Part shown: piece after piece, positions 14,292 through 43,621 of the stretch
Layout: each line of letters opens with the position of its first letter
Numbering within the stretch: the stretch's first letter is position 1
Origin: Streptosporangiaceae bacterium
GTDB lineage: Bacteria; Actinomycetota; Actinomycetes; Streptosporangiales; Streptosporangiaceae
Assembly (NCBI GenBank): GCA_030038015.1
Contig: JASHPR010000048.1
Span: forward strand, 1-43,938
Direction: 5' to 3'
Length of the DNA: 43,938 nucleotides
The notes under the pieces: generated by a model
Seen by the model: only the letters and a program-made list of their open reading frames with translations
Told to the model about the DNA's origin: nothing
Database searches by the model: none
Position numbers and translations under genes: made by a program

Positions 14292-15116
14292 TTGACATCT
14301 GCGCGCGTTAAGGCCGTGGGCGCCGGTGCGATCTTGCTCTGCACCGTGCTGGTCTGCTACCGCAGCCTGTCGGGTCCCGGGGATGCCCCGCCGCCGCCGG
14401 GCGGCTACTTCACCTTGCAGCCCGTGGGCTCCTACGCCGCACTGCCTGATGACGCCGCCGCCGCCGCCGAGGTCCACCGCTCGGGATGGGAGCCGCGGCC
14501 CGGCAACTCACCGTATAACCAGACCATCCCGCCGCACTTGAAGCTCCACCCGGTCAGCATCGCCTCCCGCGCCTACGATCCCCTCTGGAACAAGTACATC
14601 CTGGGCCGCATCACCGGTGATTTCACCGGGACCACCGACGAGATTTTCCAATGGGCGGCGGCAAAATGGGGGTTGCCGGACAACCTCCTGCGGACCGTCG
14701 CGTACATGGAATCCGGCTGGCGCCAGTCCAACTTCGGGGATTACGTCGACGACCGCGCGGAGTGCCCGCCTGGCTATCAGACGGTCCCGTGCCCAGTCAC
14801 CTTCGGAATCGTGGGAGTCAAGTCAACGAGCTGGCCCGGGATCTTTCCCTGGAACCGCGATTCCACCGCGGCGGCCGTGGACGTCCTGGGCGGCTGGCTA
14901 CGCGGCTGCTATGAGGGCTGGGTCTGGTGGCTCCGCGAGCACGGGAACCGGTCACGCGGCGTCTATCACGCCGGGGACATCTGGGGCTGCGTCGGAGCCT
15001 GGTACTCGGGCAACTGGCTCGACGGCTCGGTCAGCGACAGCCGCAGCGGCGAGAACTACATCTACCGAGCGCAGCACTGGTACCGGACGCGGCCATGGCT
15101 CAGCAAGTGGTTTTAA
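14292..15116 (+). CDS. Secreted SLT/lysozyme-like transglycosylase family protein
   Basis: TTG start, N-terminal TM/signal, VAYMESGWRQSNFGD (putative catalytic Glu), Trp-rich C-terminus. Confidence 0.7.
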   Translation: MTSARVKAVGAGAILLCTVLVCYRSLSGPGDAPPPPGGYFTLQPVGSYAALPDDAAAAAEVHRSGWEPRPGNSPYNQTIPPHLKLHPVSIASRAYDPLWNKYILGRITGDFTGTTDEIFQWAAAKWGLPDNLLRTVAYMESGWRQSNFGDYVDDRAECPPGYQTVPCPVTFGIVGVKSTSWPGIFPWNRDSTAAAVDVLGGWLRGCYEGWVWWLREHGNRSRGVYHAGDIWGCVGAWYSGNWLDGSVSDSRSGENYIYRAQHWYRTRPWLSKWF

Positions 15117-15144
15117 TCCCCCCGCATCACAGGAGTGCTCTCCG

Positions 15145-16779
15145 ATGAATCTTGGGTACACCATCCGCGCTTCACAGGTCATGGTGCGTCATCCCGTTCA
15201 GGGGGTCGAACGCGTCCGCGGGCGCATTGACAGACGCAGGGACTTGCGGGACTTGGCGGGGCTCGGCACGTCGGTCAGTGATTTCTACGGCGCGGTCGCG
15301 GACTGGGCGCCACGACTCCACGCCCTGCTTGACCTGCCCTGGCCGTGCCCGGCCGTAGCCGACTTCGAGCGGGTGTGGGACGGGATCGTCGCCGACCTGA
15401 GCAGCGCCGGCGTACGCGTCGGGATACGCTCCTACGGCGGGTGGAACGACGGCGATAAAGCGTTCGCCGAGGCCATCTGGTGCATCATCCTGCACCGGCG
15501 CCCCGGAAAAGTAGTGGAGACGGGCGTTGCTCACGGGCTTACCACCCGGGTAGTCCTCGAGGCGCTCGAGCGCAACGGCTGCGGCCATCTCTGGAGCATT
15601 GATCTGCCGGCCGTCGATTCGGCCCTGCATTCCGAGATCGGCATGGCGATTCCGCAGCACCGGCGCCATCGCTGGACGTACGTCCCCGGAACGGCCCGTC
15701 AGCGGCTGCCCGCGCTGCTCGATAAGCTGACGGGGATCGACGTCTTCATACATGACAGCCTGCACACCGGGCGCAACCAGATGTTCGAGCTCGAATCGGC
15801 ATGGTCCGCTATGCGGGACGGCGCGGTGGCCGTGGTCGATGATATCGATCACAGCCTCGCATTCCGGACCTTCGTCGACCGCGGGGAGCAGCGCAGGTGG
15901 CTGGCTGCCAGGCACGTAACCGGGCCCGGTCTCGCGGTCGAATCGGGGCTGTGGGGACTGGTCGTCAAGGACCGTGAGGCGCTGGCGCCGTCACGGCGAC
16001 GGCCGCGGCCGGGCCGCGCCGCGGTGAGCGACATAAGGGACAATCAGCACTACCGTGCCCTGCGCCCGCTGATGAGCACCGGCACGGCTCGCGACACCCG
16101 GCACGTGCGGATCGAACTGGCCGTCACGAGAGAGATCGCCCGTGCCGTCCGGCTTCGGGCGCCGTCCGGTGCCCGCATCCTGCAGATCCAGGCGCACCAC
16201 GGCCAGGAGACCTTGCTCCTGCGCGACCAGCTTGACCGCCCGGACCGCCCGGTTATCTACGATCAGGAGGACGCGCGTGATGCCGAGGCCAGGGCGGGGA
16301 CGCAGTTCGAGCAAGTGGATTTCGAATCGGCAGCGTTCCCTGCCTCCGGCGGGGTCTTTGACGTTGTTGTCTGGAACCGTAATCTGGTCACCCTGAAGAA
16401 CGCCGTGCCGGCCCTGCGCGAGGCCCGCAGGGTGCTGAGGCCGGGGGGTCTCCTCGTGCTCGCGGTCCCCAATCTGGCCGCCCTGCACAACCGCGTGCTC
16501 CTGCTGGCCGGCCGGCAGCCGACCACGCTGCACATCGACAACGGGGACCACGTCCGCGGTTTTGCCAGCGGCTCGATGACCAGGTTCCTCGAGCGCGATC
16601 TGGAATTCCGCGTCGTGCAGATCACAGGCGTGGGCATCGCCCCGGTCACCGGGGCTGTCTTGCCGCGGCCGTTTCGCGGTATCGGCCACACCGTCGTATG
16701 GGTCCTGCAGAAACCGGGAGGGACAACACCCGGCCGTTCGCAGCCGGCCACGGCCGGGTTGCATTCCGCCGGCGTTTAG
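15145..16779 (+). CDS. Two-domain methyltransferase fusion (class I SAM MTase + Methyltransf_11-like)
   Basis: RBS AGGAG then ATG; KVVETGVAHGLTTRVVLEAL...IDVFIHDSLHT and ARILQIQAHHGQETLLL...FDVVVWNRNLVTLKNAVPALREARRVLRPGGLLVLAVPN. Confidence 0.75.
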   Translation: MNLGYTIRASQVMVRHPVQGVERVRGRIDRRRDLRDLAGLGTSVSDFYGAVADWAPRLHALLDLPWPCPAVADFERVWDGIVADLSSAGVRVGIRSYGGWNDGDKAFAEAIWCIILHRRPGKVVETGVAHGLTTRVVLEALERNGCGHLWSIDLPAVDSALHSEIGMAIPQHRRHRWTYVPGTARQRLPALLDKLTGIDVFIHDSLHTGRNQMFELESAWSAMRDGAVAVVDDIDHSLAFRTFVDRGEQRRWLAARHVTGPGLAVESGLWGLVVKDREALAPSRRRPRPGRAAVSDIRDNQHYRALRPLMSTGTARDTRHVRIELAVTREIARAVRLRAPSGARILQIQAHHGQETLLLRDQLDRPDRPVIYDQEDARDAEARAGTQFEQVDFESAAFPASGGVFDVVVWNRNLVTLKNAVPALREARRVLRPGGLLVLAVPNLAALHNRVLLLAGRQPTTLHIDNGDHVRGFASGSMTRFLERDLEFRVVQITGVGIAPVTGAVLPRPFRGIGHTVVWVLQKPGGTTPGRSQPATAGLHSAGV

Positions 16780-29113: not shown

Positions 29114-29132
29114 GGGTAACCCGGCGTTACCC
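29114..29132. terminator. Hairpin GGGTAAC-ccggc-GTTACCC between convergent genes
   Basis: Perfect 7-bp inverted repeat overlapping the stop codon of the minus-strand kinase gene. Confidence 0.5.
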
Positions 29133-30599
29133 GGGGTTCCTCGCCGACGCCGGGGCATCGCTGTTGTTGAGCTCGGTGGGCGCATGGCCAGCCCCAGCCG
29201 GCGCCGGTCGTGCCCGCAGGGCTGGCCGGCCCGGCTTCAGGCCGTTGTGCCGCTGCGCCCTGTTGTCCAGCAAGGCTGCCCCCCCGTCACCCATGACGGG
29301 CGGCCTTGCCCGGCCGATCGACAGAGCTCGGGGCACCCTGTTGAGTACGCCCACAATGGTGCCCTGGCTCATCGTCCTGATCTCCTGGGCGGCGGTGCGG
29401 ACCGACGTCCGCCGGGTACGGCGGACGTCGGCCACGACCACCACCACGTCGCTGATGCGCGCCACCGTCATCGCGTCGGAAACCGCCAGCACCGGCGCGC
29501 TGTCGACCACGATGGCATCGGCGACGCCTTTCATATCGGCGAACACCCGGGTCAGCTCTTGGACATCGAACAGCTCGGCCGGACAGCCCGTGCGACCGCC
29601 CACGGTCACCAGGCTCAGCCCGCGCACATCGGTGGGAAGCACCACCTCGTCCAGCGATGCCTCGTCCATGAGCAGGTCTGTCAGGCCGGGCGCGTCGCTG
29701 ACGCCGAACACATCGCCCAGCGACGGGTGCCGGAGGTCCGCATCGACCAGCAGCACCATCACCCCGGCCTGCGTCAGGGCCGTGGCCAGGTTGACCGCCA
29801 CGGATGTGCGGCCCTCGCGGGGCTGCGCACCGGCCACCAGCAGCACCGTCCCGGGGTCGCCCGCCGGGGTGAGCAGCGGGCCGAGCCGCGCCCTGAGATA
29901 GCGGTAGGCCTCCGCCGGGCGGGACGACGGGGCTTTCCTGAAGACGAACGCCGGGTTGGTGCGGTAACGCCACATGCGCGGGACCGCGGCCACGGCCGGC
30001 GCGCCCAGGCACTCCTCCAAATCGGCCCGGTCGCGCACCCGGCCGTCGAAAGCTTCGCGCACGAAGATCTCGCCCACGCCGAGCAGCAGTCCAAGAACCA
30101 CGCCCAGCGCAAGCAGGATCTTTTTGGACGTCCCGGCCGGCGCAGTCGGCAGATCAGCAGGCGTCACCAGCGTGGCCTGCAGCGGGTCTGCCGCACGTAC
30201 CGCCTTGGGGCTCGCGGCCAAATTGCGGAATGCGATGTAGGCCGCCGCAGCGGCGGAGGCGCATCGCTGAGCCGCCGGGGCCGTCGGCATTGAGCAGCTG
30301 ACCGACAGTATGTTGGAGGTGCTCGATACATCGGCACTCAGGTGCGGTGCCAGCAGGCCGGCGTTGACGTGCAGCGTGCGTGCGGCATGGTCCACGACCA
30401 CCCCAGATGTGGCAACAATCTTCTCCGTGGCCTGGTTCGGCACGACCAGCGTCGCGTTGGGCACGACGTGGGACTCAACGTCAACTTGAGCTGTGGAGGT
30501 GTAGTGGACAGGCTGCATCCTGGCGAACAGCCAAGCCGCCACCACGCCCGCCAGCGTCGCACATACCAGCCATAGCCCATGCTTTCGCAACACTGTCAT
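29127..30599 (-). CDS. Wzz-type chain-length determinant/BY-kinase (CpsD/CapB-like)
   Basis: Two TM helices flanking the periplasmic domain, then LLVAGAQPREGRTSVAVNLATAL...VLLVDADLRHPSLGDVFG...DAIVVDSAPVLAVSDA. Confidence 0.9.
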   Translation of the reverse strand: MTVLRKHGLWLVCATLAGVVAAWLFARMQPVHYTSTAQVDVESHVVPNATLVVPNQATEKIVATSGVVVDHAARTLHVNAGLLAPHLSADVSSTSNILSVSCSMPTAPAAQRCASAAAAAYIAFRNLAASPKAVRAADPLQATLVTPADLPTAPAGTSKKILLALGVVLGLLLGVGEIFVREAFDGRVRDRADLEECLGAPAVAAVPRMWRYRTNPAFVFRKAPSSRPAEAYRYLRARLGPLLTPAGDPGTVLLVAGAQPREGRTSVAVNLATALTQAGVMVLLVDADLRHPSLGDVFGVSDAPGLTDLLMDEASLDEVVLPTDVRGLSLVTVGGRTGCPAELFDVQELTRVFADMKGVADAIVVDSAPVLAVSDAMTVARISDVVVVVADVRRTRRTSVRTAAQEIRTMSQGTIVGVLNRVPRALSIGRARPPVMGDGGAALLDNRAQRHNGLKPGRPALRARPAPAGAGHAPTELNNSDAPASARNPG

Positions 30600-30708
30600 A
30601 ACTGCCGGACCCGCCTATCGGTTCTTTCGATGTGCCGCTGGGACGCGGCCTGCCTGGTCTGCGGACTGGGTACGGGGGCAGTGCGGGCACCGCCGCCGTG
30701 TGTCGTGG

Positions 30709-32247
30709 TCACGCGAACACTCGCCGCGGTAGCCGTGTGATGGCCGATGCGGCGCTCGGCCGGCCGTCGGCGTCGGCTGGCTCACTTCGCCCGGGCAGGA
30801 CCCGGACCAGGGCCAGGAGCAGGAAGAACATGTCGCCGGAGCCGCGGTAGGTCAGGTGCGGGTCGAACACCATCATCACGACCTGCGAGCAGGTGCACGC
30901 GGCTAGCGCCGTGGCGATGACCCCGGCCGGGTCGGCGCGCTGCGCGTGCCTCCAGCACTTCTTGAGCACCGCCGCGACGAACGCGAAGTAGCTGACGAGC
31001 AGCGGGATCCCGCCGCCCCAGAGCAGCCAGGTGTATCCGCTCTCGATCCAGACGTAGCCGTACTGCCGGGTATCCGTGGCTATCCGGGCCGAGGGCCGCA
31101 CGCCCAGGATCCAGTTGTTATCTGAGAACAGGACCGGCCAGAAATACGTCCGAAGGTTGTAGAGCCGGTCTAGCCAGCTCACCGGAAGACCTGTCGCGGA
31201 ATTGAAGCCGCCCAGCCGGGTCTGAATGACTGGCCACAGCAGCACGCCGCCGACGAGCCCAACTGGAACGGCGTAGGCGGCGATCCGGGCCGCCTTCGTG
31301 AGCACCATCAGCGCCACGAGCGCCACGATCAGGCCGATCAGCGTGGAAAACTCTGCCGCGGCGATGACGGCCAGCGCGAACAGGGCCGCCAGGCCGCCGA
31401 GCCACAGGCGCCGCGGGTAGCCACGCACGAGCATCGCGATCGCAATCCCGAGGTTCAGGATCGCGAGGTCGGCGACGGCCGCGGGCAGGCCAAGCAGGGA
31501 ACTGCCGCGGCCGTCTGACAACGGCGCCGTGACGTCATTCGGCGCGTAGTACGTCGCGAGCAGCCTGGGTACCCCGAAAAGGTGCAATGACTGCAATATC
31601 CCGATAAAGCACACGAGCGCCGCCGCCACCATCGACAGCGTGAGACAGCGCAGGGCCTGCTCGCGCGTCTTGACGACCGACCGCACGATCACGTACTCCG
31701 CGAGCAGCTTCCACATCACGATGCAGTACAGGAGGTCGTCCTCGGTGATCGCCCGCTGCCGTACCTCCATCATCGCCAGGGGCAGCACCGAACTCGTGAT
31801 CCCCAGCGCGATGATGGTGACATCGACGCGATCGATCGGTGGCCACCGGAGCCCGCCGGTTCGCAGTTGCGCCAGCCAGCGCAGGCCGATGGCCCCCCCG
31901 AACAAGACGATCAGGGCCTCGTTCGGCCGCAGCACCGGGAGCACCGCGCCGGCGTTGATCCCGACGATCAGCGGCGTGAGGAGGATCAGGGAGTACGCCG
32001 CAATGACCGGCCTGACGATGACCAGCCCGATGACGGCGAGCGCGACGAGCGCGAGCACCGCGTACTTGACCTTGACGTTCAGCAGTGCCCCGAGCGCGAC
32101 CGGGCCGAGCAGCAGGGCGCCGTCCAGAAACCGCCGCCAGACGGCCGGCCCGGCGTCCTGGATGGCGTCGGCAAACGCCAGCTTGCGTGAGGCGAACCCG
32201 ACGCCGAACCGCCTCGGGCCGACGCCCGCCGCACCGCTTGCCGTCAC
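30709..32247 (-). CDS. O-antigen ligase/polymerase (Wzy-like) membrane protein
   Basis: About 10+ TM segments, large loop with [15 protein letters not shown]-type ending ([20 protein letters not shown]), position in cluster. Confidence 0.8.
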
Positions 32248-32912
32248 CTCGCACCGCCTCCGAGAAGGGCCGGAATGGTGCGCAAAAGGATCACGGCATC
32301 AAGGAGGAAGCTGCGGCGGGCTACGTACTCCACATCGAGCCGGAGCGCATCCCGCATCGACAGCCTGCTGCGCCCGCTCACCTGCCACAGGCCCGTCATC
32401 CCGGGTTTTACGTCAAAACGGCGCTGGTACGCCTCGCCGAACATGTCGGCTTCCCACGACAGCACCGGGCGCGGCCCGACGAGGGACATCTCGCCCTTGA
32501 GCACGTTGAGCAGCTGCGGGAGCTCGTCCAGGCTGCTGCGGCGCAGCCACGCGCCGACCGGCGTAACGCGCGGATCGGCGTCTAGCTTGAAGAGCCCTCC
32601 GGCGTCGGCCGTGGCGGCCGCGCCGGAGGAGAGCAGGCCCGTCACGTAGTCGCGGTGTATCCGGTCGTCGTTGTCGATGCGCATCGTCCGCAGTTTCAGC
32701 AGCGTGAAGGGGTGCCTGTTCCGGCCCAGCCGCTCCTGGCGGAACAGCGCCGGCCCGCGGGATGTCGAACGCACAAGCAACCACAACAGCAGCAACAACG
32801 GCGTCAAGATGATGATCGCTATCAGCGAGAGCACAATGTCGGTGGCCCGCTTTGCCGTTTCGCGTCCCGGCACGAGCGCGGCGCCGCGTTTTTTTTCCGC
32901 AACGTCAGTCAT
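32244..32912 (-). CDS. Initiating sugar-phosphate transferase (bacterial sugar transferase family)
   Basis: [86 protein letters not shown]. Confidence 0.93.
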
Positions 32913-34090
32913 GGCCTGATTCCCCCTCGCCCTCGCAGCGCGGTTGCCAGCGCTTCGCACACGAGATCGACCTGACCGTCGGTCTGATGAGGGAATATGG
33001 GCAGCGACAGCAGCTCGCCCGCCGCCCGCTCGGCCACCGGCAGCGAGCGGTTCGCGAACCGCCGCAGCGGCGGCTGCAGGTGACACGGGAGCGGATAGTG
33101 CACCCCGGTCTCGATGCCGCGCCGCCCCAGTTCCTCGCGGACGCCGCCGCGGTCGGCGACCCGCACCACGAACAGGTGGTAGACGTGGCGCGCGGACGGT
33201 GCGACTCCGGTCAACTTCACGCCCGTGCCGCCGAGCTGAGCGCGGTACCGGTCGGCCACCGCGATCCGCCGCTGCGTCCACGCGTCGATCCGGGCCAGCT
33301 TGCCGGAGAGCGCGATCGCTTGCAGCGTATCCAGGCGGCTGTTCGTGCCGAGGCAGTCGTGCTCGTAGTGCGCCGTGCCCCGGGACCGGCCGTGGTTGGC
33401 CAGCACCCGCACGCGATCGGCTAGGTCTGGCCGTGAGGTGACCACGGCGCCTGCGTCGCCGAACGCACCCATGTTCTTCCCCGGGTAGAAGCTGAAGCAG
33501 GCGGCCTCGCCGAACGATCCCGCCCGCCTGCCGTCCCATTCCGCGCCGTGGGCCTGCGCCGCGTCCTCGATCAGCGCGATGCCCGCCTCATCGGCCACGG
33601 CCAGCAGGGCGGTCATGTCCGGCACCTGCCCGAACAGGTGCACGACCATCACCGCGCGCGTGCGGGGCGTGATGGCCTCGGTCAGTGTCTGCGGCGTGAT
33701 CAGCAGCGTGTCGTCGCTGACGTCGGCGAAGCGGGGGACGGCCCCGGCGCGCACCACCGCGGCCGCGGTGGCGATGAACGTGTTGGCCGGGACGATGACC
33801 TCGTCGCCCGGGCCGATCCCCAGCGCCATGAGCGTGAGCTCCAGCGCGTCCGTCCCGTTCGCGACCCCGACGGCGAAGTCCGCGCCGCAGTAGGCGGCCC
33901 AGTCCCGCTCGAACGCCGCGACCGCCAGCCCGCCGATGTACCGGCCGCCGAGCAGGCTGGCCAGGTAGTCCTGCTCGATCGAGGCCCAGACCTCGCTCGC
34001 CATCGGGGCGAGGTCGGTAAACGGGACGCGGGTCATCCCGCCCGCCGGGGTTCGGGGCGCGCGCTCTGGCTTGATGCCGGTGTCAGCCAA
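32909..34090 (-). CDS. DegT/DnrJ/EryC1/StrS-family PLP aminotransferase
   Basis: VPFTDLAPM, GVANGTDALELTLMALGIGPGDEVIVPANTFIATAAAV, IEDAAQAHGAEW, FSFYPGKNMGAFGDAGAV. Start 34090 (TTG) or 34036 (ATG). Confidence 0.93.
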   Translation of the reverse strand: MADTGIKPERAPRTPAGGMTRVPFTDLAPMASEVWASIEQDYLASLLGGRYIGGLAVAAFERDWAAYCGADFAVGVANGTDALELTLMALGIGPGDEVIVPANTFIATAAAVVRAGAVPRFADVSDDTLLITPQTLTEAITPRTRAVMVVHLFGQVPDMTALLAVADEAGIALIEDAAQAHGAEWDGRRAGSFGEAACFSFYPGKNMGAFGDAGAVVTSRPDLADRVRVLANHGRSRGTAHYEHDCLGTNSRLDTLQAIALSGKLARIDAWTQRRIAVADRYRAQLGGTGVKLTGVAPSARHVYHLFVVRVADRGGVREELGRRGIETGVHYPLPCHLQPPLRRFANRSLPVAERAAGELLSLPIFPHQTDGQVDLVCEALATALRGRGGIRP

Positions 34091-35174
34091 CGGACGTCCC
34101 CGCTGAAGCCACGTCCAGCCGGGGCCGGGCGTCAGCGGGCCGCCGCGTCACCTCGGCCAGCGCTACCGGGCGCTGTTCCTGCAACGAGAGCTGAGCGCAT
34201 TCCAGGACCTGGACCACGGCCAGCCCGCTGCCCCCGTCCACGGAAGGATGCGACCCGCTGACGATGCAGTCGATGAAATGCTGATCCTGGACCGCGAGCG
34301 GCTCGGCGAAGGCGACGAATGGTGACACGGTGTCGCCCAGGTGGTACGCGATCTGAGATACCGGCCCGTCTCCCTCATCCGGGGGCACGGCCGACTTGTC
34401 ATAAACGCGGATCCGCTCGCCGTCGACCATGTCGTCGTAGACGACCATCTTTTTCGATCCGACCGCCGTGATCCGTCTGACCTTCTGCGGGTTGAGCCAG
34501 CTGACCTGGATATTGGCCCGCACGCCGACGTCGGCATAGTCGAGCCGCAGGTAGGCGACGTCCTCGTGCTCGAGATGGACGTGCCGTGAGGCCCAGGCCG
34601 TGACGGTCGTCGGCCGTGAGCCGAGCACGAAGTTCGAGATCGAGATGTCGTGCGGCGCCAGGTCGAGAATGACATTCACATCCGCCTGGTAGAGCCCCAG
34701 ATTCAGGCGCGCGCAATCCAGGTAGAACAGCCGTCCGAGCTCCCCGGAGCGCACCAGGTCGCGCAGCTTGTGCACCGCGGCGTTGTGCTCGAAGGTGTGG
34801 CCCGGCATCAGCACGACGTCGGCGTTCTCGGCCGCCTCGACCAGGGACCGCGCGGCGCGTGTCGTGGTGGCCAGCGGCTTCTCTATCAGCGCGTGCTTCC
34901 CGGCGGCGATTGCTTTCAGGCCCAGTGGCGCGTGGCTGGCCGGCGGGGTGGCAATGATGACCGCGTCAATATGCGGCAGCGCGTCCTCGAGATCGGCGTA
35001 TGAGGGGATGCCCAGCTCGACCTGACGCTGTGCGCCATTAAGGCTGGCGAATTGCGGATCCACTCCGACAATCGATGCCACCCCGGTCGTGGACCGCAGC
35101 ACGCGCACATGCCGGGACCCCCAGTAGCCGACGCCCACGACGCCGACGCGGACTCCCTCCGGTTGCTCCCGCAT
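34083..35174 (-). CDS. Gfo/Idh/MocA-family oxidoreductase (WlbA-like)
   Basis: VGVVGVGYWGSRHVRVL, ALIEKPLATT, MPGHTFEHNAAVHKLRDLVRSGELGRLFYLDCARLNLGLYQADVNVILDLAPHDIS. Confidence 0.92.
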   Translation of the reverse strand: MREQPEGVRVGVVGVGYWGSRHVRVLRSTTGVASIVGVDPQFASLNGAQRQVELGIPSYADLEDALPHIDAVIIATPPASHAPLGLKAIAAGKHALIEKPLATTTRAARSLVEAAENADVVLMPGHTFEHNAAVHKLRDLVRSGELGRLFYLDCARLNLGLYQADVNVILDLAPHDISISNFVLGSRPTTVTAWASRHVHLEHEDVAYLRLDYADVGVRANIQVSWLNPQKVRRITAVGSKKMVVYDDMVDGERIRVYDKSAVPPDEGDGPVSQIAYHLGDTVSPFVAFAEPLAVQDQHFIDCIVSGSHPSVDGGSGLAVVQVLECAQLSLQEQRPVALAEVTRRPADARPRLDVASAGTSVG

Positions 35175-35463
35175 AACGATCCCCCTTTGGTCCTATCCCT
35201 GCTTCGTCGCCTTACGGCATCCGGTGCAGCCGCGGATGCCGGCCGGGCCAGTCCGTCACGTTCCGGGCGAGGATTCGGAGCAATTGAGCCATGTATTCGG
35301 CCTCATATCGCAGGTGGCAGATTGGAATTGCTAATGTCCCCTTGGGCACAAGAAGCGCCGGTGGCAGCACATTCCAGAGCTTGGCCCATGCACCCTGGCC
35401 GGCGGCACCCCCGCATGAGCGGCCGGAGCTACGTCAGATTGGGGGCATTGCGTTGCCGCTGCG

Positions 35464-38400
35464 CTAGCCATCGGCCATCTCGGCGACCCGGCTGCGGGCC
35501 TTGTTGCGCACGTGACCCAGGCCCCCGGCGAGCCAGCCCAGCTCCGGCGTCCGCCACGCGGCCTGGACGGCGATATATATCGCGCTTCCGACCAGGGCGG
35601 CGGCAACGATTCCGAGGCGCGCGCCGATGGGCCGCGCCAGCCAGTGCTGGATGGTCGTCGCGGTGAGCCAGGCCGGCCCGGCCATGATCGCGGCGCCGGC
35701 CAGGAACTTGCCCAGCGACGGCGCGAGGCGCTCGGTGCCGCTGCGGCTGATCTTCCGCCACAGCCGGGTGGTCAGGTGGCAGGCCGCCACGGTCACCGCC
35801 ACCGAGAAGGCCAGGCCGAGCGCGAGGATGACATGGAGGCCGTGGACCAGCAGGGCGGCGCTGGCCAGGCCCAGGCAGATGACGGCCTGCAGCAGCATCG
35901 ACACCAGCGGTGAGCGCGTGTTCTTCCTCGCGTAGAACGCGTAGGTGGCGATCATGAAGGCAGTCTGACTGATCACGGCCAGCGACAGCGCGGCCAGCGA
36001 CAGCGCGACCATGGTGACGCCCGACGCGGTGTTCATCCGCCCGAAGGAGATGGCCCGGGCCAGCGGCACGGCCAGGACCAGGTAGGCGACGGCGGCCGGG
36101 ATGGCCACGAAGAGCCCCAGGGCGAAACCGCGCACGAGGGTGTCGCGGAACCCGGTCGTGTCCCCGTCCAGGTGCATCCTGGCCAGCCGGGGCAGCAGCG
36201 ACAGGGCCACCGGCGTGGCGCCCACCGCGATCGCGAGGTAGTAGAAGTTCAGCGCGATCTGGAAGCCGACCACCCCGCCGGGCAGGCGGTTTGCCACGGT
36301 CAGCAGGGTGAGCACCTGCAGGGCGAGCAGCCCGGCCTGGGCCAGCGAGGGCAGGGCCCGCCGGACGACCACCCGGACCTCGGGGTCGCGCCAGCCCAGG
36401 CGCGGGATGAGGACCGAGCCCGCCCGCTTGGCCCCGTACCACTGGGTCGCGGCGTGCAGCACGACCGCGCCGGTGGAGCCGAGCCCGAGCAGCAGCATCT
36501 CGCCCGTTGGCACCTGGTTCAGGTTCGTGTCCGTCCCGTAGAGCACGGCGGTGGCGAGCAGGACGGCGATCGTGCCGAGGTTCTCGATGGAGGGAGCGCC
36601 CGCGGCCAGGGCGAAGCGCTGGCGCGAGTTCATGACCGCGGTGGCGGTCCCGACGACGCCATAGCAGAAGATCTGCGGGATGAACATGAGGATCAGCAGC
36701 CGGCCGATGCGGACCTCGGCCGCGCCCGCCAGGTGGGTCCCGCCGCCCATGGCCGCGAACCCCAGCACGAGAGGGCCGAGGACGAGCGCCACGGGCGCGA
36801 CCGCCACCAGCGAGACCAGGGTCATCCCGAGAAAGCCGCCGGCCACGCGTTCCGAGGCGCGGCGGTCCCCGGCGTCGATGTGGCGCACGAGCGCGGGCAC
36901 CAGCAGCGAGGAGAACAGCGAGCCGGCCAGGAACCCGTAGTAGATCAGGTTCGGCAGGGAGTTCGTGAGCTGGTAGGTGTTGCCGAAGAAGGTCGGGCCC
37001 AGGACCGCCCCGATGCAGGCGAACCTGATCAGGCCGGTGACCCGGCTCACGATGGTCCAGGCGGCCACCGTGAGCGAGTCGCCCGCGGCCGCGGTGGCCG
37101 ATGCCGGGGCGTCGCTGCCGCCCCGGTGGGCAGGGGCGTGGCTGGCGGTGTCGGCGGGGCGGGGTGGCCTGGCCAGGTCGGGGCGGCCGGGCTTGAGCCC
37201 GTTGTGGCGGTGCGGCCCGGCGGCCTCGAGCAGGGCGGGCGGGCTGGCCGGGAGGCGGGCCCGGCCGATCGACAGCGGCCGGGGGGCGCAGTTGACGATG
37301 CCGACGAGGGTGGCGGGGCTGATGGTTTTGATTTCCTGGGCGGCGGCGCGGACCGATGTCCGCCGGGTGCGGCGCAGGTCGGCCACCATGACCACGACGT
37401 CGGCGACCCGGGCCAGCGTCATCGCGTCGGAGACAGCCAGCACCGGGGCGCTGTCGACCACGATCGCGTCAGCGGCGCCCCTCATCTCGGCGAAGACCCG
37501 GGCCAGCTTGGTGACCTCGAGCAACTCGGCCGGCCGGGCCGCCAGCCCGCCGACGGTGACCAGGCTCAGCCCGGGCAGGCCGGTGGGCACCACCGCCTGG
37601 TCCAGCGATGCCTGCCCGGTGAGCAGGTCGGTTAGCCCAGGGGCCTGGCCGGCGCCGAAGACCTCGCCCAGTGACGGGTGCCGCAGGTCGGCGTCGACCA
37701 GCAGCACCCTGGTCCCGGCCTGGGTCAGGGCCGTGGCCAGGTTGACCGCCACGCTGGTGCGGCCCTCCCGGGGCTGCGCGCCGGCCACCAGCAGCACGGT
37801 GGCGGGGTGGCCGGCGGGGGTGAGCATCGGGCCCAGGCGCGCCCGCAGGTACCGGTAGGCCTCGGCCGGGCGGGAGAACGGGGCGTTGCTGAACACGAAC
37901 GCCGGGTTGGTCCGGTAGCGCCACATCCGCGGCACCGCGGCCACCGCCGGGGCGCCCAGGCACTCCTGCAGGTCGTCCCGGCCGCGGACCCGGCCGTCGA
38001 TGGCGTCGTGGACGAAGATCTCGCCTGTGCCGAGCAGCAACCCCAGGGCCGCGCCCAGCGCATAGAGGATCTTCTTCGACGTCCCGGCCGACGCCAGCGG
38101 CAGGTCGGCAGCGGTCACCAGCGTGGCCTGCAGCGGGTCGGCCGCGCGGATCGCCTTGGGGCTCGAGGCCAGGTTGCGGAATGCGATGTAGGCCGCCGCG
38201 GCGGCGGCGGCGCACTGCTGGGCCGCCGCCGCCGTCGGCATGGAGCAGCTGATCGACAAGATGTTCGAGGTGCTCGACACCCCTGCGCTCAGGTGCGGCG
38301 CCAGCAGGCCGGCGTTGACGCCCAGCGCCCGGGCGGCACTGACCACCACCACTCCGGACGTGGCCACGATCTTCTCCGTGGCCTGGTTCGGCACCACCAG

Positions 38401-38550
38401 CGTCGCGCCCGGCACCACGTGCGACTCAACATCCACCTGAGCCGTCGAGGTGTAGTGGACAGGCTCGCTCCTGACAAACAGCCAGACCGCCACCACGCCC
38501 GCCAGCGTGGTGGCCACCAGCCACAGGCCATGCTTCCGCAATGCTGTCAT
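35464..38550 (-). CDS. Fusion: Wzz/BY-kinase (N-term) - MurJ/MviN-type MOP flippase (C-term), 1028 aa
   Basis: N-terminal ~485 aa parallels 29127-30599; after DAPASATAAAG continues DSLTVAAWTIVSRVTGLIRFACIGAVLGPTFFGNTYQLTNSLPNLIYYGFLAGSLFSSLLVPAL... with about 13-14 TM. Confidence 0.88.
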   Translation of the reverse strand: MTALRKHGLWLVATTLAGVVAVWLFVRSEPVHYTSTAQVDVESHVVPGATLVVPNQATEKIVATSGVVVVSAARALGVNAGLLAPHLSAGVSSTSNILSISCSMPTAAAAQQCAAAAAAAYIAFRNLASSPKAIRAADPLQATLVTAADLPLASAGTSKKILYALGAALGLLLGTGEIFVHDAIDGRVRGRDDLQECLGAPAVAAVPRMWRYRTNPAFVFSNAPFSRPAEAYRYLRARLGPMLTPAGHPATVLLVAGAQPREGRTSVAVNLATALTQAGTRVLLVDADLRHPSLGEVFGAGQAPGLTDLLTGQASLDQAVVPTGLPGLSLVTVGGLAARPAELLEVTKLARVFAEMRGAADAIVVDSAPVLAVSDAMTLARVADVVVMVADLRRTRRTSVRAAAQEIKTISPATLVGIVNCAPRPLSIGRARLPASPPALLEAAGPHRHNGLKPGRPDLARPPRPADTASHAPAHRGGSDAPASATAAAGDSLTVAAWTIVSRVTGLIRFACIGAVLGPTFFGNTYQLTNSLPNLIYYGFLAGSLFSSLLVPALVRHIDAGDRRASERVAGGFLGMTLVSLVAVAPVALVLGPLVLGFAAMGGGTHLAGAAEVRIGRLLILMFIPQIFCYGVVGTATAVMNSRQRFALAAGAPSIENLGTIAVLLATAVLYGTDTNLNQVPTGEMLLLGLGSTGAVVLHAATQWYGAKRAGSVLIPRLGWRDPEVRVVVRRALPSLAQAGLLALQVLTLLTVANRLPGGVVGFQIALNFYYLAIAVGATPVALSLLPRLARMHLDGDTTGFRDTLVRGFALGLFVAIPAAVAYLVLAVPLARAISFGRMNTASGVTMVALSLAALSLAVISQTAFMIATYAFYARKNTRSPLVSMLLQAVICLGLASAALLVHGLHVILALGLAFSVAVTVAACHLTTRLWRKISRSGTERLAPSLGKFLAGAAIMAGPAWLTATTIQHWLARPIGARLGIVAAALVGSAIYIAVQAAWRTPELGWLAGGLGHVRNKARSRVAEMADG
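37094..38550 (-). repeat. About 1.45 kb direct repeat of 29141-30599 (paralogous kinase segment)
   Basis: By-eye alignment of several stretches shows about 80-85% nt identity in the same orientation. Confidence 0.7.
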
Positions 38551-39033: not shown

Positions 39034-39690
39034 GTGCGGCTGGTACTTTGTGATGAAAACCGAATTTTGTGCGAAGCGCTCGGCGCTGCCATGGAGGGGC
39101 GCGGGCATCAGGTAGTCGCGATCACAACCACCGCCGCCGGCGGCGTCGCCGCTGTGCGGGCATTACGGCCCGACGTCATCCTGCTGGATCTTCGCTTTCC
39201 CGATGAGGCGGCAGCTGGGGGCGCGGCGGGCATCGACGCCGCCCGGAAGATCCGCCGCGACTGCCCAGACACGGCGGTGATGGTGCTGTCCAGCCTGGCC
39301 GACCCCGCGGCGTGGTCGGCGGTCCTCGAGATCGGCGTGGCGGGCCTCATGCTCAAGGACCAGTGCGTGAACGCGATCGCCGGCGCCCTCGACGTCATCG
39401 CGGCAGGCGGGGTCGTGTTCGACCAGAAGCTGTCCAGCCAGGCAAGCCAGCGTGCCTCCCGGCGGCGGCGCAACGGCACGCCCTACGTGCTCACCCCGCG
39501 GGAGAAGGAGGTACTGCGCAGGATCGTGGCTGGCCAGAGCACGGGACAGATGGCCCGAGAGATGAACATCGCCACCAGCACCCTGCGCACCTACGTGAAG
39601 AACGTGCTCTCGAAGATCGGCGCGCACACCCGTCTGCAGGCTGCCGCTCTCGCGACCCAGGGAGAACTGCAGGATGAACTCACCGCGTAA
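39034..39690 (+). CDS. NarL/LuxR-type response regulator
   Basis: REC domain VRLVLCDENRILCEALG...VILLDLRFPD...MLKDQ; HTH LTPREKEVLRRIVAGQSTGQMAREMNIATSTLRTYVKNVLSKIGAHTRLQAAA. Confidence 0.92.
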   Translation: MRLVLCDENRILCEALGAAMEGRGHQVVAITTTAAGGVAAVRALRPDVILLDLRFPDEAAAGGAAGIDAARKIRRDCPDTAVMVLSSLADPAAWSAVLEIGVAGLMLKDQCVNAIAGALDVIAAGGVVFDQKLSSQASQRASRRRRNGTPYVLTPREKEVLRRIVAGQSTGQMAREMNIATSTLRTYVKNVLSKIGAHTRLQAAALATQGELQDELTA

Positions 39691-39796: not shown

Positions 39797-40468
39797 ATGG
39801 GTATCAGTGTCTTTGTCATAGACGCGGAGCGCACCTTTGCCGACGCCCTCTCGGCCAGGCTGGAGGCCGAGGAAGACATAGACGTTGTCATGCCACTCCA
39901 TCCCACCGCACCTGCGCCGTCGCTGATTATCGGCAGGCACGCGGATGTAGTGCTGTTGGACGCTGACCTGCCCGACAGCGCTGCGATCAACCTGTGTGAG
40001 GAGCTGTCCGGCCGGTCTGAGGCCCCGCGGGTGGTGATGATGAGCTGCGGCTCGCACCCGGATCGCATCGCGGATGCCGTCCGCGTGGGCGCTGCGGGCT
40101 GGGTGCGCAAGGACGAGTCGCTTCATGACCTGCTGCGCGTCGTGCGGGGGGTGGTGGCGGGGGAAACGTGGCTGCCGCGGGCCCAGATGGGCGCGGTGCT
40201 GCGGCTGCTGCTCGAGGAGCGCCAGCAGCGGCATGAAAGCGACCGGCTGCTCGCCGCGCTGACGCCGCGCGAGCGGGAGATATTGTCGTGCCTGGCCGAC
40301 GGCGCGGGGCGGCGCGATGTGGCCGAGCGGCTCCATCTGTCGGCGAACACGGTCCGAACCCACCTGCAGAATCTCATGGCCAAGCTTGGCGTCCATTCCA
40401 CGCTTGAGGCGGTGGCGGTGACCCGCTCCCTGCTGAGCGTGTCCTCGACCGGCGAGGGTTCGTGCTAA
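39797..40468 (+). CDS. NarL/LuxR-type response regulator
   Basis: VFVIDAERTFADALSARLEAEEDI...VLLDADLPD...WVRKDES; HTH LTPREREILSCLADGAGRRDVAERLHLSANTVRTHLQNLMAKLGVHSTLEA. Confidence 0.92.
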   Translation: MGISVFVIDAERTFADALSARLEAEEDIDVVMPLHPTAPAPSLIIGRHADVVLLDADLPDSAAINLCEELSGRSEAPRVVMMSCGSHPDRIADAVRVGAAGWVRKDESLHDLLRVVRGVVAGETWLPRAQMGAVLRLLLEERQQRHESDRLLAALTPREREILSCLADGAGRRDVAERLHLSANTVRTHLQNLMAKLGVHSTLEAVAVTRSLLSVSSTGEGSC

Positions 40469-40609
40469 CGTCGGGGCGGGCTGCGAGCCCCGCCGCGGTT
40501 AGCGCCTGACCGGCGTGTGATGCGAGGCTAGAGCCGGTTCCGGCGATGCATCCGCGGCCGGCCCGGCTGCGGCCGGGGGTCGGCGCCAGCGGCGCCCGTG
40601 GGAAGGTGC

Positions 40610-41353
40610 ATGATTTCTGCTGATGACCGGCTGGCCGCCGGCCTGGCCGGCGAGGCAGGGCGCAGGCTGCTGGCGCTGCGGGCGGGCGGCGGCGACCCCG
40701 ATGCCATGCGGCACGCCGGCGACCGCAGTTCCCACGAGTTCATCACCGCCGAGCTGGCCCGGCGGCGGCCCGGCGACGCGGTGCTGTCCGAAGAGGGCGC
40801 CGACGACCCCGGCCGGCTGCGCGCCCGCCGCGTCTGGATCGTGGACCCGCTGGACGGCACGCGGGAGTTCGGTGAGCCTGGGCGCAGCGACTGGGCGGTC
40901 CACGTCGCGCTGTGGGAGCAGGGCGGGCTCGCCGCCGGCGCGGTCGCCCTGCCAGCTCAGGACAGGCTGCTGAGCACGGCCGACCCGCCCCCCCCGCCGC
41001 CGCCGCGACCAGACGCAACCCTCCGGTTCGTGGTCAGCCGCACCCGGCCGCCCGAGTTCACGACGCGGCTGGCCTGCAAGACCGGCGCCGAGGTGGTCCC
41101 GCTCGGCTCCGCCGGCGCCAAGGCGGCCGCGGTGATCTGCGGGGAGGCCGACGCCTACGTGCACAGCGGCGGTCAGCACGAGTGGGACTCCGCGGCACCG
41201 GTCGCCGTTGCCCTCGCCGCCGGGCTGCACGCCTCGAGGATTGACGGGTCCAGGCTCTCGTACAACCAGGCAACGCCCTCGGTGCCGGATATCCTGATCT
41301 GCCGAGCCGCGCTCGCCGGCACGCTTCTCGGGGCGATCAGGTCCGTCCGCTAA
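40610..41353 (+). CDS. cysQ: 3'(2'),5'-bisphosphate nucleotidase CysQ-like (inositol monophosphatase family)
   Basis: SEEGADD, WIVDPLDGTREFGEPGRSDWAVHVALW, HEWDSAAPVAVALAAGLHAS; upstream of cysDN. Confidence 0.88.
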   Translation: MISADDRLAAGLAGEAGRRLLALRAGGGDPDAMRHAGDRSSHEFITAELARRRPGDAVLSEEGADDPGRLRARRVWIVDPLDGTREFGEPGRSDWAVHVALWEQGGLAAGAVALPAQDRLLSTADPPPPPPPRPDATLRFVVSRTRPPEFTTRLACKTGAEVVPLGSAGAKAAAVICGEADAYVHSGGQHEWDSAAPVAVALAAGLHASRIDGSRLSYNQATPSVPDILICRAALAGTLLGAIRSVR

Positions 41354-41384
41354 AGCCCGCCTCCGACCCATTTGGAGTCTCCCG

Positions 41385-42308
41385 ATGGCCACGCCACCGC
41401 GTTCCGACTACCAGCTCTCCCATCTCGACATGCTCGAGGCCGAGTCCATCCACATCATCCGCGAGGTGGCCGCCGAGTTCGAGCGCCCGGTGCTGCTGTT
41501 CTCCGGCGGCAAGGACTCGATCGTGATGATGGCCGTGGCCGAGCGCGCGTTCCGGCCCGCGCGGCTGCCGTTCCCGGTGATGCACGTGGATACCGGCCAC
41601 AACTTCGCCGAGGTGCTCGAGTTCCGGGACCGGCGGGTGGAGCAGGCGGGCGCCCGGCTGATCGTCGCTTCGGTGCAGGACTCGATCGACTCGGGCCGGG
41701 TCGCCGAGGAGACGGGACGCTGGGCGAGCCGTAACCGGCTGCAGACCGTCACCCTGCTGGACGCGATCGAGGAGCACCGCTTCGACGCGGTGTTCGGCGG
41801 CGCCCGCCGCGACGAAGAGAAGGCCAGGGCCAAGGAGCGGATGTTCTCCTTCCGTGACGAGTTCGGCCAGTGGGATCCGAAGAACCAGCGACCCGAGCTG
41901 TGGAACCTCTACAACACCAAGCTGCGGCGCGGCGAGCACATCCGGGTGTTCCCGCTGTCCAACTGGACCGAGCTCGACGTGTGGCACTACATCCGGCGGG
42001 AGGAGCTCGAGATCCCGTCCATCTACTTCGCGCACCGGCGCCATGTCTTCGAGCGCGAGGGCATCCTGCTCGCCGGCAGCCCGTACCTGATCAGGGGAGA
42101 GGACGAGCCGCTCTTCGAGGCGACCGTCCGCTATCGCACGGTCGGGGACATGACGTGCACCGGGGCCGTCGAGTCGGCAGCGGCGACGATCGCCGACGTG
42201 ATCTCGGAGATCGCGGCGACGCGGATCACCGAGCGGGGCCAGACGCGCGCCGACGACCGCACCAGCGAGGCAGCGATGGAAGACCGCAAGCGAGAGGGCT
42301 ACTTCTGA
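41385..42308 (+). CDS. cysD: Sulfate adenylyltransferase subunit 2
   Basis: LLFSGGKDSIVMM, HVDTGHNFAEVLEFRD, GGARRDEEKARAKER, WTELDVWHYI. Confidence 0.96.
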   Translation: MATPPRSDYQLSHLDMLEAESIHIIREVAAEFERPVLLFSGGKDSIVMMAVAERAFRPARLPFPVMHVDTGHNFAEVLEFRDRRVEQAGARLIVASVQDSIDSGRVAEETGRWASRNRLQTVTLLDAIEEHRFDAVFGGARRDEEKARAKERMFSFRDEFGQWDPKNQRPELWNLYNTKLRRGEHIRVFPLSNWTELDVWHYIRREELEIPSIYFAHRRHVFEREGILLAGSPYLIRGEDEPLFEATVRYRTVGDMTCTGAVESAAATIADVISEIAATRITERGQTRADDRTSEAAMEDRKREGYF

Positions 42309-43621
42309 TGACGCACGCTCAGGCTGACCCCGGCGCCAGCCAGCCCCCGGACCGGCACGTGGACATGCTCCGGCTGGCGACCGCGGGCTCGGTCGACGAC
42401 GGCAAGAGCACCCTCATCGGGCGGCTGCTCTTCGACTCCAAGGCGATCTTCGAGGACCAGCTCGCCGCGGTGGAGCGCACCAGCAGGGAGCGCGGCGAGG
42501 AGTACACAAACCTGGCCCTGCTGACCGACGGGCTGCGCGCCGAGCGCGAGCAGGGCATCACCATCGACGTGGCCTACCGCTACTTCGCCACGCCGCGGCG
42601 GAAGTTCATCATCGCCGACACGCCCGGTCACATCCAGTACACGAGGAACATGGTCACCGGGGCGTCAACCGCCGACCTGGCGATCGTCCTGGTCGACGCC
42701 CGCAACGGGCTGACCGAGCAGAGCAGGCGGCACGCGTTCCTCGCCACGCTGCTGCGGGTGCCGCACCTGGTGCTCGCGGTGAACAAGATGGACCTCGTCA
42801 ACTACGACGCCGCGGTGTTCGAGCAGATCACCGAGGAGTTCACCTCGTTCGCCGCCAAGCTGGAGATCGGCGACCTGACCTTCATCCCCATCTCGGCGCT
42901 GCACGGGGACAACGTGGTGCAGCGCTCGGCCAGCATGCCGTGGTACGACGGCCCGTCGCTGCTGCACCACCTGGAGCACGTGCACATCGCGTCCGACCGG
43001 AACCTCATCGACGTGCGGTTCCCCGTGCAGTTCGTGATCAGGCCGCACCAGGCCACGCATCCTGAGCTGCACGACTACCGTGGCTACGCCGGCCAGGTGG
43101 CGGGGGGCGTGCTCAAGCCCGGCGACGAGGTCATGCACCTCCCGTCCGGCCTGACCACGACCATCAAGCGCATCGACACGGCGCGCGGCCCGGTGGCGGA
43201 GGCCTTCCCGCCCATGTCGGTGACCCTCCTGCTCGACGGCGACCTGGACATCTCGCGGGGGGACATGCTCTGCCGGCCGCACAACCAGCCGCCAGCGGCC
43301 CAGGATGTCGAGGCACTGGTCTGCTGGATGACCGACGCCAGGACGCTGACCCCGCGCAGCAGGCTGGTCGTGAAGCACACCACGCGGACCGTGAAGGCGT
43401 TCGTCCGCGACCTGCATTACCGCCTCGACGTGAACACCCTGCACCGGGACGAGTCAGCCACCCAGTTCGGCCTCAACGAGATCGGGCGGGTGACGCTGCG
43501 GCTGACGCAGCCGGTGTTCTGCGACCCGTACAACCGCAACCGGCTCACCGGCGGCCTGATCCTGATCGACGAGGCGACCAACGGCACCGTCGGCGCGGCC
43601 GTGGTCACCGACGCCCATTAG
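42308..43621 (+). CDS. cysN: Sulfate adenylyltransferase subunit 1 (GTPase)
   Basis: ATAGSVDDGKSTLIGRLLFDSK, TDGLRAEREQGITIDVAYRYF, IADTPGHIQYTRNM, NKMDLV; overlaps cysD stop (TGATG). Confidence 0.96.
   Translation: MTHAQADPGASQPPDRHVDMLRLATAGSVDDGKSTLIGRLLFDSKAIFEDQLAAVERTSRERGEEYTNLALLTDGLRAEREQGITIDVAYRYFATPRRKFIIADTPGHIQYTRNMVTGASTADLAIVLVDARNGLTEQSRRHAFLATLLRVPHLVLAVNKMDLVNYDAAVFEQITEEFTSFAAKLEIGDLTFIPISALHGDNVVQRSASMPWYDGPSLLHHLEHVHIASDRNLIDVRFPVQFVIRPHQATHPELHDYRGYAGQVAGGVLKPGDEVMHLPSGLTTTIKRIDTARGPVAEAFPPMSVTLLLDGDLDISRGDMLCRPHNQPPAAQDVEALVCWMTDARTLTPRSRLVVKHTTRTVKAFVRDLHYRLDVNTLHRDESATQFGLNEIGRVTLRLTQPVFCDPYNRNRLTGGLILIDEATNGTVGAAVVTDAH

Follow-up and report, generated by a model that had tools for sequence, protein, structure and literature searches.

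In Wzx/Wzy systems, repeat units are assembled on undecaprenyl phosphate and flipped; Wzy then polymerises them outside, controlled by a co-polymerase. For the enterobacterial common antigen, polymerase and co-polymerase are physically associated as a WzyE–WzzE complex, and the two are separate, non-covalently associated proteins, unlike the single chain described below, and the flippase lies outside the reported complex (PMC10030265); the enterobacterial flippase was described separately (PMC11706664). The cited papers thus place polymerase and co-polymerase together and the flippase apart, and do not settle the place of the flippase in the Wzy–Wzz complex. In mycobacteria, MurJ (MviN), which acts in peptidoglycan synthesis, carries a pseudokinase domain after its 14th transmembrane helix, so that a MurJ flippase and a cytoplasmic pseudokinase are found on one chain (PMC6180346). 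Fusions of a flippase with Wzy or with a co-polymerase in polysaccharide loci were not found in the literature searched, with subscription journals lying mostly outside the search.

The window analysed here (the whole stretch of DNA) comprised 43,938 nt of contig JASHPR010000048.1 from an uncultured actinobacterium, Streptosporangiaceae bacterium (assembly GCA_030038015.1, a single draft of 786 contigs, 91% complete, with 6.9% estimated contamination). It encodes a protein in which a co-polymerase half, referred to as K1, is joined to a flippase of the MurJ family:

35464..38550, minus strand: K1::MurJ fusion, 1028 aa, Wzz/Wzc-like co-polymerase, linker and MurJ-type flippase (from the ORF, Pfam, NCBIfam, model and PDB folds)
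37279..38550, minus strand: residues 1–424, co-polymerase half, with a transmembrane helix (2–28), external domain (32–146), second transmembrane helix (159–184) and BY-kinase-like ATPase fold (about 190–421)
37111..37278, minus strand: residues 425–480, Pro/Ala-rich linker, low-confidence in the model, containing no tyrosine, homologous to the C-terminal tail of the stand-alone paralogue K2
35467..37092, minus strand: residues 487–1028, MurJ-type MOP flippase of 14 helices, from a divergent subfamily and not the housekeeping MurJ
37066..37068, minus strand: in-frame GTG, codon 495, lacking a Shine-Dalgarno-like match, use of which as a start would cut the conserved (A)GDSLT flippase start

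A single uninterrupted ORF of 1028 codons at this place had been reported in a preliminary description, which gave no strand; the reading frame was confirmed as unbroken and real, with a signal well past chance, and runs on the minus strand from an ATG at 38550 to 35464. GC content at third codon positions was 0.87–1.00 in each 60-codon window, and the junction showed neither a dip nor a change of frame. An AlphaFold model computed from a 17-row alignment (mean pLDDT 79) contained both folds intact, with a disordered linker at residues 425–480 between them and a 14-helix MurJ; pTM was low (0.56), so the model does not predict how the two halves are placed relative to each other. Comparison against the PDB using Foldseek matched the first half to Wzc and CapAB and the second to MurJ, at E values of 1e-11 to 1e-18. 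The linker begins on the cytoplasmic side, and the N-terminus of E. coli MurJ is also cytoplasmic (PMC4790310), so the topologies of the two halves are compatible. The description of the protein as a co-polymerase-like part fused to a complete MurJ-type MOP flippase therefore stands, on Pfam and NCBIfam matches as well as on both folds.

The first half resembles Wzc and CapAB–CpsCD in having two transmembrane helices (residues 2–28 and 159–184 in the model) that flank an external alpha/beta domain (32–146), as in Wzz-type co-polymerases, and a cytoplasmic ATPase fold; its fold match to CapA1B1 had a TM-score of 0.91 (target-normalised). It differs from these proteins in its short external domain, in the flippase joined at its C-terminus, and in the motifs discussed below. 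Of the three domains expected in the polypeptide by the preliminary description, AAA_31 was matched by residues 263–393 (31.2 bits, cut-off 27) and MurJ by the second half, but Wzz (PF02706) gave no match to K1 at E ≤ 0.001, and K2 reached 21.0 bits, below the cut-off of 25.5. The further proposal that this half is a BY-kinase was not upheld. Its Walker A motif (GAQPREGRTS, residues 257–266) has Arg264 in place of the catalytic lysine, which is present in the corresponding motif of BceF (GPTPGIGKS; PMC8394532), and no tyrosine lies between residues 235 and 490 of either K1 or K2, so the autophosphorylated tyrosine cluster that BY-kinases carry C-terminally (PMC8394532) is missing. Both co-polymerases of the window (29127–30599 and 37279–38550) have the Walker A lysine replaced and lack the tyrosine tail. 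With these two losses, the first half is best called a putative pseudokinase co-polymerase. It is very improbable that an active BY-kinase half controls the flippase in cis by phosphorylation: the NCBIfam eps_fam model, ‘polysaccharide biosynthesis tyrosine autokinase’, is matched by residues 250–419 just over its cut-off (113.9 bits, cut-off 108), and both Walker A' (LLVDADLR) and Walker B (IVVDSAP) have been retained, but most related loci share these losses, their kinase motifs being mostly decayed equally or worse, and the decay is thus a property of the subfamily and not damage in this genome.

The flippase half was matched by Pfam MurJ (PF03023) over residues 515–970 (E = 1.1e-39, 136.8 bits, cut-off 27.4, profile positions 3–440 of 451) and contains the complete domain and the 14-helix fold of a MurJ-family MOP flippase, with a TM-score of 0.85 (target-normalised) to E. 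coli MurJ. It departs from MurJ/MviN proper in lying within an exopolysaccharide locus and in scoring 155.5 bits against the TIGR01695 lipid II flippase equivalog, below the cut-off of 235.55. Two MurJ genes on other contigs scored higher (305 and 290 bits, compared with 139 for the fusion flippase). Neither a second MurJ-family flippase nor one of the Polysacc_synt family occurs in the window, in keeping, for these two families, with the earlier statement that no further flippase is visible in the locus. Arg503 and Arg509 conserve R18 and R24 of E. coli MurJ, and equivalents of D39, R52 and R270, likewise reported as essential in that protein (PMC4790310), are absent. Loss of R52 and R270 as grounds for excluding a lipid II substrate was considered and rejected, since the housekeeping MurJ C271 of the same genome also lacks both, and the residue losses therefore do not define the substrate. 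With two good MurJ genes present elsewhere, this divergent third paralogue is most likely the Wzx of this exopolysaccharide locus, a prediction based on gene neighbourhood, which fits.

Homology between K1 and K2 ends near residue 485, with four codons left to the K2 stop, and the flippase starts right there, its N-terminus after the junction being the AAAGDSLTVAAW start, which is common to one of the related loci described below, L038 (AAAGDSMTVAAW). In those related loci in which the GDSLT-type motif could be located, about 30 more residues precede it. A real ORF that nevertheless yields two proteins with no functional coupling, by initiation at GTG 495 or GTG 501 or by proteolysis of the linker, is unlikely. 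Such an outcome would agree with the predicted disorder of the linker, with the flippase having its own start in relatives, and with the in-frame GTGs at the flippase start, of which GTG 495, near LTVAAW, had been raised earlier as a possible separate start. These two GTGs are the only in-frame starts between codons 406 and 530 (none at 406–494), but both cut into the conserved flippase N-terminus, and initiation there would lose the GDSLT-type start that relatives conserve; GTG 495 also has no Shine-Dalgarno-like match upstream, which weighs against its use and is not decisive, because such matches are weak at other genes of the locus too.

The genes downstream of the fusion, on the same strand, are as follows:

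34083..35174, minus strand: GFO/IDH/MocA oxidoreductase, the next gene after the fusion, across a 289-bp gap
32909..34090, minus strand: DegT/DnrJ/EryC1/StrS aminotransferase
32244..33539, minus strand: initiating sugar transferase, with a Bac_transf domain at ORF residues 230–426
30709..32247, minus strand: Wzy-type polymerase, overlapping the sugar-transferase stop by 4 bp, with a weak fold match to the O-antigen ligase WaaL
29127..30599, minus strand: K2, stand-alone co-polymerase paralogue, 490 aa, 78% identical to K1 in amino acids and 81% in nucleotides

The listed sugar-transferase ORF overlaps DegT, so its true start lies further in. The Wzy-type protein had no Pfam or NCBIfam match and compared weakly with the WaaL fold (E = 0.022, probability 1.00), its name otherwise coming from its conserved neighbourhood; with this assignment, sugar transferase, flippase, Wzy and co-polymerase of a Wzx/Wzy locus are all contained in 29127–38550. 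Invariant motifs of the protein, among them DPHLT.RGS, mark what seems to be a polymerase family not yet described. Two adjacent LuxR-type response regulators (39034–39690 and 39797–40468) are divergent from the fusion gene; L038 has a homologue of the second ahead of its GFO gene. The locus is adjoined at 40598–43621 by genes resembling inositol phosphatase/CysQ, CysD and CysN (the last named by translation alone), which point to sulphate activation, with a sulphated polysaccharide as a possible purpose. A single ORF at 14617–16779 holds two methyltransferase domains (Methyltransf_24 and Methyltransf_11), and similar-looking proteins occur near the locus in L036 (11821–13443) and L037 (15753–17426). 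Promoter and terminator scans found nothing.

A GTDB-wide scan with the flippase alignment recovered eight loci; besides the isolates Actinocatenispora rupis and Longispora albida, the sources were mostly draft genomes from Streptosporangiaceae and other Actinomycetota, with one labelled Chloroflexi. The same kind of scan with the fusion itself gave no relative, and homologues spanning the junction, which the preliminary description had proposed to seek in related genomes, were absent from 60 relatives, 61 genomes across the family and 151 of the order. The related loci have in common the gene order GFO–DegT–sugar transferase–MurJ–Wzy–co-polymerase, which they show as the probable ancestral one, with two exceptions, L038 being cut off inside Wzy and L042 carrying GFO and DegT elsewhere; one co-polymerase stands at its place, separate from the flippase. 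In four of the eight loci, MurJ and Wzy lie in one ORF, with proteins of about 1070–1140 aa where complete:

9866–13198 in L042: MurJ::Wzy ORF
7628–11350 in L043: MurJ::Wzy ORF
9839–13135 in L045: MurJ::Wzy ORF
4413–6653 in L038: MurJ::Wzy ORF, open at the contig end

These proteins share the flippase subfamily, the neighbourhood and the joining of the flippase to a pathway component with the fusion of the window; in contrast to it, their partner is the polymerase, at the flippase C-terminus, and their co-polymerase is separate. The gene trees hint at more than one origin of the MurJ::Wzy fusion, which is arguably the more general of the two arrangements.

In the window, MurJ is missing from the slot between transferase and Wzy, and sits instead behind K1, upstream of GFO. 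Its flippase is nearest to those of L039 and L038 (69–71% identity) and fell outside the L042/L043/L045 clade (support 98–100, in a thinly sampled tree of 9 sequences), whereas Wzy, co-polymerase, GFO, transferase and DegT of the window were placed inside or next to that clade (support 89–100), with nearest identities of 62–70%, and 49% for the co-polymerase. The vacant slot and the conflicting flippase phylogeny together indicate a lineage-specific rearrangement. A quite unlikely alternative is an assembly artefact, in which a draft, possibly metagenomic, joined the co-polymerase gene to a non-adjacent, foreign flippase gene; the fragmentation into 786 contigs, the 6.9% contamination, the differing phylogeny of the flippase and the occurrence of the fusion in no second genome would all agree with this. 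However, the 281 bp around the junction are unique in the assembly, except for two short partial matches of 78–86% identity, and no orphan copy of either half was found elsewhere in it. The join also keeps the reading frame and brings in the flippase from its conserved N-terminus onward, and a repeat-driven misjoin is unlikely because the longest exact match between K1 and K2 is 30 nt, too short for a typical repeat-induced join.

K2 had gone unmentioned in the preliminary description, as had the place of the flippase beside Wzy, or on one chain with it, in relatives; K2 bears on what the K1 half contributes. Divergence of the two copies (dS 0.48, dN/dS 0.27) indicates purifying selection, by which K1 has been kept as a protein, and part of this selection may predate the fusion. 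K2 by itself could be the active chain-length regulator, and in the relatives the co-polymerase functions as a separate protein, so function does not depend on the tether. It is possible, if rather doubtful, that the fusion is a neutral accident, tolerated while its K1 half adds nothing beyond K2: the intact, 78%-identical K2, the single occurrence of the fusion and the one co-polymerase that relatives have at this place would suit such a history, and the signature of selection, read with the same reservation about its age, argues against it.

We consider it probable that this is a real two-part protein, in which a degenerate Wzc-like co-polymerase is tethered to the flippase of the locus, with the following mechanism and origin. 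A flexible cytoplasmic linker of about 55 residues would hold the co-polymerase to the flippase, which, as Wzx, would move the undecaprenyl-linked repeat unit outward, and the K1 half may pack with K2 around the separate Wzy, whereby flipping would be held at the polymerisation site and substrate delivered there; the ATPase fold would serve as an assembly scaffold and not as a tyrosine kinase. Covalent coupling of flipping with chain-length control is thus plausible, and the MurJ::Wzy fusions elsewhere point the same way, to a flippase at the polymerisation site. As to origin, the native flippase, fused to or beside Wzy, may have been lost in this lineage, a flippase from another branch acquired laterally, and the acquired gene fused in frame to a duplicate of the co-polymerase gene, a few codons short of the latter's stop, the fusion presumably arising after or together with the flippase replacement.

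The protein is a new domain arrangement built from known components. Mycobacterial MurJ is the nearest published ‘MurJ plus pseudokinase’ architecture that we found, as an analogy and not as a relative; its domain differs from K1 in being Ser/Thr-kinase-like and C-terminal, in acting via FhaA, and in coming without a co-polymerase domain (PMC6180346). The main interest lies in flippase fusions with two different partners within one family of loci, natural fusions with either partner being ‘Rosetta stone’ evidence of working side by side, and also offering, as single chains, material for structural studies of a complex whose membrane proteins are otherwise separate. The findings further suggest that what may be swapped between such loci is a flippase of the MurJ family and not a classical Wzx. 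More tentatively, flippase, polymerase and co-polymerase might form one physical complex of which different pairs have been made covalent in different lineages; if true, these fusions would provide direct genetic evidence that a stable Wzx–Wzy–Wzz assembly exists, along with single-chain constructs for solving its structure.
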